Of a DNA stretch of 64,000 nt, positions 35,683 to 38,773 are shown one piece after another. Location: assembly GCF_003752505.1 (NCBI RefSeq), contig NZ_RKHO01000001.1:2790001-2854000 (forward strand). The letters run 5' to 3'. The DNA comes from Nocardioides aurantiacus (lineage in GTDB: Bacteria; Actinomycetota; Actinomycetes; Propionibacteriales; Nocardioidaceae). The notes beneath the pieces were generated by a model. It had not been told where the DNA came from. It searched no databases and saw only the letters and a list, made by a program, of their open reading frames with translations. Positions within the stretch are counted from its first letter, which is position 1, and each line of letters begins with the position of its first letter. Both the position numbers and the translations under genes were made by a program.

Positions 35683-36171
35683 TTGAGCGAGACGACCCCC
35701 TCCCCCGCCCGCCTCTCCCCCGGCGACCAGGCCCCCGACTTCGCGCTCCCGACCGACACCGGCGACGTGGTCCGCCTCTCCGACCTGCGCGGGTCGAAGG
35801 TGATCGTGTACTTCTACCCCGCCGCCATGACGCCGGGCTGCACCAAGCAGGCCTGCGACTTCACCGACTCCCTCGACTCGTTGCGCGGCCAGGGCTACGA
35901 GGTCGTCGGCGTCTCCCCGGACAAGCCGGCCAAGCTGGCGAAGTTCCGCGAGCGCGACGGCCTGACCCTCACCCTCGCCTCCGACGAGGACAAGCAGGTG
36001 ATGACGTCGTACGGCGCGTTCGGCGAGAAGAAGCTCTACGGCAAGGTCGTCCAGGGCGTCATCCGCTCCACCGTCGTCGTCGACGAGCAGGGCGTGGTCG
36101 AGGTCGCGCAGTACAACGTCAAGGCCACCGGCCACGTCGCCAAGCTCCGCAAGGACCTCGGCCTGGACTGA
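35683..36171 (+). CDS. bcp: Thiol peroxidase, BCP/PrxQ type
   Basis: A 162-residue peroxiredoxin reducing hydroperoxides. FALPTDTGDVVRLSDLRG opens the thioredoxin fold; peroxidatic Cys is in MTPGCTKQACDF with the resolving Cys five residues later, the atypical two-Cys BCP arrangement. VVGVSPDKPAKLAKFRERDG and STVVVDEQGVV follow. The first usable start is TTG 35683 (AGGA 12 bases upstream); no ATG or GTG is in frame near. Divergent from cbiM with a shared control region; the tRNA gene follows nine bases after the stop. Confidence 0.88.
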   Translation: MSETTPSPARLSPGDQAPDFALPTDTGDVVRLSDLRGSKVIVYFYPAAMTPGCTKQACDFTDSLDSLRGQGYEVVGVSPDKPAKLAKFRERDGLTLTLASDEDKQVMTSYGAFGEKKLYGKVVQGVIRSTVVVDEQGVVEVAQYNVKATGHVAKLRKDLGLD

Positions 36172-36180
36172 GCCGGTCCC

Positions 36181-36254
36181 GCGCCCGTAGCCCAACAGGC
36201 AGAGGCACCAGGTTTAGGTCCTGGACAGTGCGAGTTCGACTCTCGCCGGGCGCA
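36181..36254 (+). tRNA. tRNA-Leu-like gene, anticodon UAG, class I shape
   Basis: A 74-base cloverleaf. The acceptor stem GCGCCCG/CGGGCGC is perfect, the D-arm GCC...GGC has one extra base, the anticodon stem CCAGG/CCTGG closes the loop TTTAGGT with anticodon TAG at 36215-36217, the variable loop is only five bases (ACAGT), and the T-arm GCGAG-TTCGACT-CTCGC is perfect. Discriminator is A; CCA is not encoded. The loop equals that of normal tRNA-Leu(UAG), yet tRNA-Leu should be class II with a long variable arm. It is probably transcribed with bcp. Confidence 0.8.
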
Positions 36255-36470: not shown

Positions 36471-37406
36471 GTGCGAGCAGCGGTGTACGACGAGTTCGGT
36501 GGGGCCGAGAACCTGCGGGTGACCGAGGTGGCCGACCCGCCCGTGGGGCCGGACACCGTCCTGGTCCGCGTCCGGGCGACGAGCGTCAACCCGGTGGACT
36601 GGAAGATCCGCGAGGGCTACCTGCAGGGCGCCTTCCCCCACCACCTGCCGATCATCCCGGGCTGGGACGTCGCCGGTGTGGTCGAGGCGGTCGGTCCGGC
36701 GGTCCGCACCGGGGTGGCCGTCGGCGACGAGGTCTTCGGCTACGTACGCCGCGACGACGTCCACCAGGGCACCACGGCCGAGCTGGTCCCGGCGCCCGAG
36801 CGCACCGTGACCGCCAAGCCGGCGAACGCCTCCTTCGAGGAGGCCGCCGCGCTGCCGCTGGCCGGGCTCACGGCCTACCAGGCGCTGACCGAGGCGCTCG
36901 AGGTCACCGCGGGCGACCGCGTCCTGGTGCACGCCGCGTCCGGCGGGGTGGGCCACCTGGCGGTGCAGATCGCGAAGTCGCTCGGCGCGACCGTCGTGGC
37001 GACCGGCTCGGCGGGCTCCCACGACTGGCTGCGCGAGCTCGGTGCCGACGAGGTCGTCGACTACGCCGCCGGTCCGGTCAGCGAGCAGCTCTCGTCGGTC
37101 GGCGGGCCGGTCGACGCCGTGCTCGACCTGATCGGTGGCGACGCCCTGTCCGACGCGCCCGCACAGCTGCGCGAGGGCAGCACCCGCCTCGCCTCCGTGG
37201 TCGACGCGGCCGGCGTCGGCGAGCTCGGCGGCACCTACGTCTTCGTGCGCCCCGACCGCGACGGGCTGGAGGCCCTGGCCGCCCTCGTCGACGCGGGCAG
37301 CCTGCGCGTCGTGGTGGCCGAGACCTTCGACCTCGACCACGTCGCCGACGCCCACCGCCTCTCCGAGGAGGGCCACCCGCGCGGCAAGGTCGTGATCACG
37401 GTCTGA
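36471..37406 (+). CDS. NADP-dependent quinone oxidoreductase-like protein (MDR family)
   Basis: A 311-residue medium-chain reductase without zinc ligands. MRAAVYDEFGGAENLRVTEV and SVNPVDWKIREGYLQG open it, GWDVAGVVEAVG follows, and the NADPH fold is VLVHAASGGVGHLAVQIAKS with LGADEVVDY. The quinone reductase subgroup reduces quinones or activated alkenes. GTG 36471 is preceded by GAGAGGA. Monocistronic; it converges on rdgB with a strong hairpin in between. Confidence 0.87.
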   Translation: MRAAVYDEFGGAENLRVTEVADPPVGPDTVLVRVRATSVNPVDWKIREGYLQGAFPHHLPIIPGWDVAGVVEAVGPAVRTGVAVGDEVFGYVRRDDVHQGTTAELVPAPERTVTAKPANASFEEAAALPLAGLTAYQALTEALEVTAGDRVLVHAASGGVGHLAVQIAKSLGATVVATGSAGSHDWLRELGADEVVDYAAGPVSEQLSSVGGPVDAVLDLIGGDALSDAPAQLREGSTRLASVVDAAGVGELGGTYVFVRPDRDGLEALAALVDAGSLRVVVAETFDLDHVADAHRLSEEGHPRGKVVITV

Positions 37407-37412
37407 GCCACC

Positions 37413-37440
37413 GCTGCTGCAGGCTCAGCCCTGCAGCAGC
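37413..37440. terminator. Bidirectional hairpin between convergent genes
   Basis: GCTGCTGCAGG and CCTGCAGCAGC form a perfect 11-base stem with a six-base loop. The stop codon of rdgB (37425-37427) sits in the loop, and the stem encodes its last residues. It should end transcription from both sides. Confidence 0.6.
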
Positions 37441-38045
37441 TCGGCGACCCGGGGCGCGATCTCGCGCAGCGCTCGACCGCGGTGCGAGATCGCGTCCTTG
37501 GCCTCGGGCGACAGCTCGGCCGAGGTGAGCCCGCCCTCCTGGTCGTCGGGCACGAAGAGGCCGTCGTAGCCGAAGCCGCCCTCGCCCCGGACCTCGTGGA
37601 TGACCCGGCCGGCCATCACGCCCTCGACGACCAGCTCGCGACCGTCGGGGTGGCAGGCGGCGACGGCGCAGCGGAACGACGCCGCCCGGCGCTCGTCGGG
37701 GGTGTCGGCGAGCTGCTCGAGCAGCAGCCGGTTGTTGCGCTCGTCGGACTTGGGCTGCCCCGACCAGCGGGCCGAGAGCACCCCCGGCATCCCGTGCAGC
37801 TCCTCGAGGCACAGCCCGCTGTCGTCGGCGATGCTCGGCAGCCCGGTCGCGGCCAGGCCGGCGCGGGCCTTGAGCAGCGCGTTGCCGACGAAGTCGGGCT
37901 GGTCCTCCACGGGTTCGTCGTACGCCGCCACGTCGGCCAGCCCGAGCACCTCGACGCCCGGGACGTGCTGCTCGAGCAGCCGCCGCATCTCGGCGATCTT
38001 GCCGGGGTTGCGCGAGGCCACGAACAGCCGCGGGGCCTGGCTCAC
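37425..38045 (-). CDS. rdgB: Non-canonical purine NTP pyrophosphatase (RdgB/HAM1)
   Basis: A 206-residue house-cleaning enzyme hydrolysing dITP, XTP and ITP to monophosphates. [18 protein letters not shown] is the phosphate-binding N-terminus, [13 protein letters not shown] the metal-binding segment and [13 protein letters not shown] the base-recognition strand, with ISHRGRAL near the end. GTG 38045 overlaps the rph stop (GTGA), the same pairing as in mycobacteria (rphA then Rv1341). Confidence 0.95.
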
Positions 38046-38773
38046 GAGCGAGCGGCGCCGAGAGCCTCGGCCTGGATGCGGGTGAGGTCGGCGCAGCCAC
38101 CGGCGGCGAGGTCGAGCAGGGCGTCGAGCTCGGCGCGGTCGAACGGCGCCCCCTCGGCGGTGCCCTGCACCTCGATGAACCGGCCCGCGCCGTCCATCAC
38201 GACGTTCATGTCGGTCTCGGCGCGGACGTCCTCCTCGTAGGGCAGGTCGAGCCGCGGGGTGCCGTCGATGATGCCGACCGAGACCGCCGCGACCGAGCCG
38301 GTCAGCGGGTCGCCCTTGAGCGCGCCCTGCTCGCGCAGGTGCGCGACGGCATCGGCGAGCGCGACGTAGGCGCCGGTGATGGCGGCCGTGCGGGTGCCGC
38401 CGTCGGCCTGGAGCACGTCGCAGTCGAGCACGATGGTGTTCTCGCCCAGCGCCTGGTAGTCGATCACCGCGCGCAGCGAGCGGCCCACCAGCCGGGAGAT
38501 CTCGTGGGTGCGGCCACCGACCTTCCCCTTGACCGACTCGCGGTCCGAGCGGGTGTTGGTGGCCGAGGGCAGCATGGCGTACTCCGCGGTCACCCAGCCC
38601 AGGCCGGAGCCCTTGCGCCAGCGCGGCACGCCCTCGGAGGCCGACGCCGCACAGAGCACGCGGGTGCGGCCGAACTCGACCAGCACCGACCCCGCGGGGT
38701 GGTCCTGCCAGTGGCGGGTGAGGGTGATCTTGCGGAGCTCGTCGTCGGCGCGGCCGTCTGCTCGTGACGTCAT
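38042..38773 (-). CDS. rph: Ribonuclease PH
   Basis: A 243-residue phosphorolytic 3'-5' exoribonuclease that trims tRNA 3' ends. Motifs are [58 protein letters not shown] and [19 protein letters not shown], all in canonical order and length. First gene of rph-rdgB. In mycobacteria it directly follows the Rv1339-type hydrolase; here a 6 kb block intervenes. Confidence 0.97.

Follow-up and report, generated by a model that had tools for sequence, protein, structure and literature searches.

A long variable arm is the mark by which bacterial leucine tRNAs are taught to be recognized. The window analysed here, a stretch of 64 kb, contains a tRNA gene that combines a leucine anticodon with a variable loop of five bases, which raises the question of whether such a gene performs ordinary decoding and how it came to occupy its place in the chromosome. 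The answer that we consider highly probable is that this is a functional class I leucine tRNA, the sole decoder of CUA, that has been repeatedly exchanged in place with a class II counterpart, most likely by recombination.

Structure of the tRNA-Leu(UAG) gene

ARAGORN calls a tRNA-Leu(tag) at 36181, with the anticodon UAG at tRNA position 35, and the Rfam tRNA covariance model (RF00005) matches 36181-36254 over its full length with 56.4 bits (E 1.8e-9). The two calls agree with each other and with the initial annotation, which had described a class I tRNA with the anticodon loop of tRNA-Leu(UAG). The gene and its diagnostic positions are the following:

36181..36254, + strand: tRNA-Leu(UAG) with a class I body (ARAGORN; Rfam RF00005, 56.4 bits; fold)
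36195..36201, + strand: leucine-type D loop, with A15 at 36195, G18G19 at 36198-36199 and A20a at 36201 (sequence; conservation in 115 class I Leu(UAG) tRNAs)
36215..36217, + strand: anticodon TAG (UAG), reading CUA (ARAGORN; the sole UAG among 45 tRNAs)
36225..36229, + strand: variable loop ACAGT, 5 nt, with U48 at 36229 (sequence; Rfam alignment)
36254, + strand: discriminator A73 (sequence; A in 114 of 114 readable class I Leu(UAG) tRNAs)

The acceptor and T stems are perfect by both sequence and fold, as had been claimed, and the variable loop, ACAGU, is 5 nt long, within the 4-5 nt of class I tRNAs and without the long arm of class II leucine tRNAs. The anticodon loop, UUUAGGU, taken at the outset to be that of a normal tRNA-Leu(UAG), is indeed the one found in the class II Leu(UAG) tRNAs of relatives, for example, G002. 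The presumed extra base of the D arm, on the other hand, dissolves into an ordinary leucine-type D loop: two bases lie between A15 and G18, as they do in 63 of 115 distinct class I Leu(UAG) tRNAs. CCA is not encoded in this gene and is encoded in that of the sister genome G009. With an acceptor stem of 7 bp and a T stem of 5 bp, the molecule is not an allo-tRNA, a type that has an 8/4 or 9/3 acceptor branch (8-9 bp acceptor, 3-4 bp T stem). Nor is it a member of a phage or plasmid tRNA array, being the only tRNA in the window and flanked by house genes.

The sole CUA decoder of the genome

The window's genome (G000) is a complete actinobacterial chromosome of 4.06 Mb with 45 tRNA genes, and the window occupies positions 2,790,001-2,854,000 of it. 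Five of these genes encode tRNA-Leu, three of class I (anticodons UAG, UAA and CAA) and only two of class II (GAG and CAG). No second tRNA with a UAG anticodon was found among the 45, so that the window tRNA is the only CUA decoder of the genome, no other tRNA is expected to read this codon, and the ordinary decoding of CUA must fall to it. Of the roles offered by the initial annotation, CUA decoding is the one that holds, given the single UAG anticodon and the alignment of CUA codons with leucine (see below). A specialised, decoy or regulatory role is not supported: a decoy or redundant tRNA would need a normal decoder elsewhere in the genome, and neither a separate class II Leu(UAG) nor any other UAG tRNA-Leu is present.

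Two further tRNAs of this genome deserve a remark. Leu(UAA), the sole decoder of UUA, is also class I (L042, G000:C1:568558-568631), and the frequency of UUA in the gene comparison below is about 0.08 per thousand codons. The tRNA-Gln(UUG) (L043, G000:C1:891853-891931) has a length of 79-80 nt, an odd D-arm and a variable region of 9 nt, and its match to the Rfam tRNA model reaches only 40 bits; G003 and G020 have tRNAs that equal it in length and score.

Leucine identity and the meaning of CUA

In Escherichia coli, leucine identity is conferred by A73, the A15-U48 pair, G18G19, A20a and contacts between the D and T loops, charging shows no correlation with the sequence or folding of the long arm, and tRNAs truncated so as to lack it remain active (PMC9976931). 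The core of this set, that is, A73, A15-U48, G18G19 and A20a, is present in full in the window tRNA. What had been suspected to be an unusual identity set is the known leucine core minus a dispensable arm. Among the 115 distinct class I Leu(UAG) tRNAs, A15-U48 is found in 109, A20a in 114, and A73 in all 114 that are readable at this position. Within the genome, A15, U48, A20a and A73 are found together in the leucine tRNAs and in just three further tRNAs.

The window's genome has a single gene for LeuRS, whose catalytic, editing and anticodon-binding domains are ordinary (Pfam). Even in G003 and G020, whose Leu(UAG) is class II, the UAA and CAA tRNAs have class I bodies, so the LeuRS of this group apparently handles class I leucine tRNAs anyway. 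When the LeuRS alignment was searched for a residue that tracks the class of the tRNA, the best column performed no better than with shuffled labels. The window tRNA is probably expressed and would be charged by LeuRS via the core determinants (A73, A15-U48, G18G19, A20a and the D/T-loop contacts), the long arm being unneeded, and the same single enzyme would charge the class I Leu(UAA) and Leu(CAA) along with the class II Leu(GAG) and Leu(CAG). Since the variable arm does not contribute to identity, the enzyme would thus tolerate a Leu(UAG) of class I. To a cell whose LeuRS recognizes the core but ignores the arm, it would make no difference which class of Leu(UAG) gene it has, and the two would hence be interchangeable.

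In class I genomes, LeuRS itself contains just 4 CUA codons, and therefore we compared 400 kb of G000 (class I) with 400 kb of G003 (class II), in which 139 pairs of homologous genes were available. CUA is very rare in the G000 members of these pairs (19 among 47,601 codons, 0.4 per thousand). Fifteen of the 19 align with Leu in G003, where seven of these 15 are CUC or CUG. Going by these alignments, CUA is leucine in the window's genome.

One locus in two states

The class I and class II forms of tRNA-Leu(UAG) occupy the same locus, exclude each other there, and have replaced each other several times. Around the tRNA gene, the locus (bcp, tRNA-Leu(UAG), rdgB, rph) is laid out in the window as follows:

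35701..36171, + strand: bcp (peroxiredoxin, AhpC/TSA family; Pfam PF00578), the conserved upstream neighbour, adjacent in 23 genomes; 35701 is not an assigned start codon
36164..36169, + strand: TGGACT at the site of the -10-like CCTAGACT box, weak here (comparison with relatives)
36471..37406, + strand: zinc-type alcohol dehydrogenase/quinone reductase gene, separating the tRNA from rdgB in the window (Pfam PF08240, PF13602)
37425..38045, - strand: rdgB (Ham1 family; Pfam PF01725), conserved downstream neighbour, kept in both states
38042..38773, - strand: rph (RNase PH; Pfam PF01138), conserved downstream neighbour, kept in both states

Our search set contains 24 genomes of the genus (the Marmoricola/Nocardioides group of Nocardioidaceae, G000-G023), and bcp was found in 23 of these. 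In all 23, bcp is followed on the same strand by one tRNA-Leu(UAG), class I in 14 genomes and class II in nine, and the convergent rdgB and rph genes downstream are conserved in either state. The initial annotation had also considered that the structure could simply be the standard CUA decoder of its lineage; this is true of the 14 genomes but not of the other nine, which use a class II tRNA at the same locus. A CCTAGACT-like box lies about 10 bases upstream of the tRNA in most relatives of both classes, its place being taken by TGGACT in the window's genome; a scan of the window locus for promoter and terminator consensus sequences found nothing.

None of the 24 genomes searched in the genus carries both forms, and all 24 genomes sampled from the family have exactly one; one genus of the family is uniformly class II (8 of 8), and another has five class I and nine class II genomes. 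Across 247 genomes of the class, the class I pattern was matched in 18, the class II pattern in 113 and both in none, with 116 matching neither because the patterns are strict. By our own arithmetic, independent draws would give about 8 of the 247 genomes with both forms and a chance of about 1 in 100,000 of finding none, with the caveat that related genomes are not independent.

The number of switches was assessed with trees of LeuRS (without G014 and G021) and bcp, both of which are single-gene trees of modest support. Each requires at least 7 changes of state in the genus; well-supported branches force 5 of these in the LeuRS tree, for which shuffled labels average 7.0 changes, and 2 in the bcp tree. 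The two trees agree in placing the class II genome G003, with good support, closest to the class I pair G000 and G009. Distances between the class I tRNAs correlate weakly with those of LeuRS and bcp, and the correlation between LeuRS and bcp is weak as well, so that these distances were set aside as evidence. We infer that the exchange most likely proceeds through recombination with DNA from other actinobacteria in which the tRNA has the same neighbours, in which case the conserved flanking genes could act as homology arms and the rarity of CUA would keep the cost of a swap low.

Origin and spread of the class I gene

The window tRNA is 99% identical to a chromosomal gene of Nocardioides sp. 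T2.26MG-1, 84% to a gene of Amycolatopsis and 84% to one of phage GodonK, compared with 66-68% to the UAA and CAA genes of its own genome and 46% to the class II gene of G003. The low identity to the latter, together with the 99% match to a Nocardioides class I gene, suggests that the class I gene is an old separate lineage that was not derived here from the resident class II gene. The class II tRNA-Leu(UAG) of G003 and of eight further genomes in the genus shares with the window tRNA the anticodon loop, A15-U48, G18G19, A20a, A73, the position beside bcp and the decoding of CUA, but it is 82 nt long, with a long variable arm and different acceptor and D stems.

A scan of named genomes detected class I Leu(UAG) in Pseudonocardiales, Streptosporangiales, Micromonosporales, Propionibacteriales, Acidimicrobiales and others, where it is often located beside bcp or rdgB/rph. 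Of 50 genomes with the class I gene, only 6 matched the class II pattern as well: two Corynebacterium, Mycolicibacterium canariasense, Allokutzneria, Umezawaea and Calothrix. The class I copies of Mycolicibacterium and Calothrix lie within tRNA clusters.

Class I bodies are encountered with other leucine anticodons as well. An 8.5-Mb genome of the same order encodes tRNA-Leu(GAG) and tRNA-Leu(CAG), both class I, side by side (L065, G037:C1:4521346-4524418). On a plasmid of Tsukamurella tyrosinosolvens (NZ_LR134447.1, L353), a class I tRNA-Leu(CAA) directly adjoins a gene for a site-specific integrase, so class I tRNA-Leu genes also occur next to integrases.

HNH endonuclease genes at the locus

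In several genomes (G018, G194, Planomonospora, Microbispora and a member of Pseudonocardiales), a free-standing HNH gene (Pfam HNH) is lodged between bcp and the tRNA. It ends at or near the 5' edge of tRNA-Leu(UAG) in five loci (L122 of G018, L278 of G194, L249, L220 and L256), and HNH remnants lie between bcp and the tRNA in G003 (L109), Nonomuraea and G287 (further loci L238 and L301). Such genes accompany tRNA-Leu(UAG) in class I and class II genomes alike, in three orders. In 2.37 Mb of DNA (overlaps counted), all but one of the matches to the HNH family are at or next to a tRNA gene, most of these loci having been chosen for tRNA-Leu(UAG); the tRNA partners are Leu(UAG) or, in cyanobacterial arrays, Gln. 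The family was not found in the examined parts of the window's genome, and a search for its relatives on mobile DNA returned one partial plasmid match and none confirmed in viral contigs.

The HNH genes are a possible driver of the exchange. More specifically, the house locus could flip between the two forms across actinobacteria via intron-less homing, whereby an HNH endonuclease at the 5' edge of the tRNA cuts one form and carries the other in, a scheme that we regard as tentative and rather doubtful. If it is true, the tRNA class would have changed either as a side effect of a selfish endonuclease or as a way to evade it.

Alternative explanations

The main competitor of recombinational exchange is an ancestor that had both genes beside bcp, from which each lineage kept one. 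The presence of both forms at the same place, and the age and wide distribution of both lineages, would fit such duplication and differential loss, but no genome with both was found in the genus or among the 247 of the class, and no remnant of the other tRNA class was detected in the flanks of 23 loci; we consider this history unlikely. Recent displacement of the host gene by a phage or plasmid gene appears more improbable still. It is true that GodonK carries a similar class I Leu(UAG) and that mycobacteriophages of the Bixzunavirus group carry class I tRNA-Leu for other codons; however, the window tRNA is a single gene in a house locus common to many actinobacteria, and no phage copy comes as near to it as the Nocardioides chromosomal gene.

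The remaining alternatives deny that the tRNA reads CUA as leucine, and both start from the unexpected class I body. A decoy, regulatory or degenerate tRNA that does no decoding is very hard to reconcile with its being the only UAG tRNA of a genome that uses CUA codons in conserved genes, and with stems and identity positions that are conserved across many genomes. Reassignment of CUA, with the tRNA carrying another amino acid, would equally account for a body that does not suit the isotype, but A73 and A15-U48 are leucine determinants and 15 of the 19 CUA codons align with leucine, some of them with other leucine codons; this is the least credible of the alternatives. In-place exchange of two functional leucine tRNA genes is the explanation that we favor.

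Relation to known leucine tRNAs and implications

tRNA-Leu is treated as class II in one review (PMC7609411), and bacterial tRNA genes were called structurally uniform in another, from 2014 (PMC4033280). The one published class I Leu(TAG) that we found, in the Mycobacterium mucogenicum clade, has the same short variable loop and UAG anticodon but is an additional copy within a tRNA cluster, and its host has kept the class II gene too (PMC6582537). The class I leucine tRNAs of actinobacteriophages (GodonK, Bixzunavirus) share the class I body and the leucine D loop with the window tRNA but are phage-borne, the Bixzunavirus Leu(CAG) being 81% identical to it. Metazoan mitochondrial tRNA-Leu is likewise charged without a long variable arm (PMC9976931) but belongs, with its LeuRS, to an organelle and has a degenerate structure. 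The literature that we covered gave no account of class I tRNA-Leu among the house genes of actinobacteria; an earlier description, in subscription papers or in tRNA databases, is possible.

In these wild genomes, a leucine tRNA present in a sole copy has switched several times between armed and armless forms, at one locus and with one LeuRS. This amounts to a natural experiment on the requirements of LeuRS and the ribosome, in which the long arm that marks bacterial tRNA-Leu looks dispensable. The case calls for caution in annotation that weighs isotype models against anticodons, and it may serve as a model for the replacement, in place, of an essential RNA gene.
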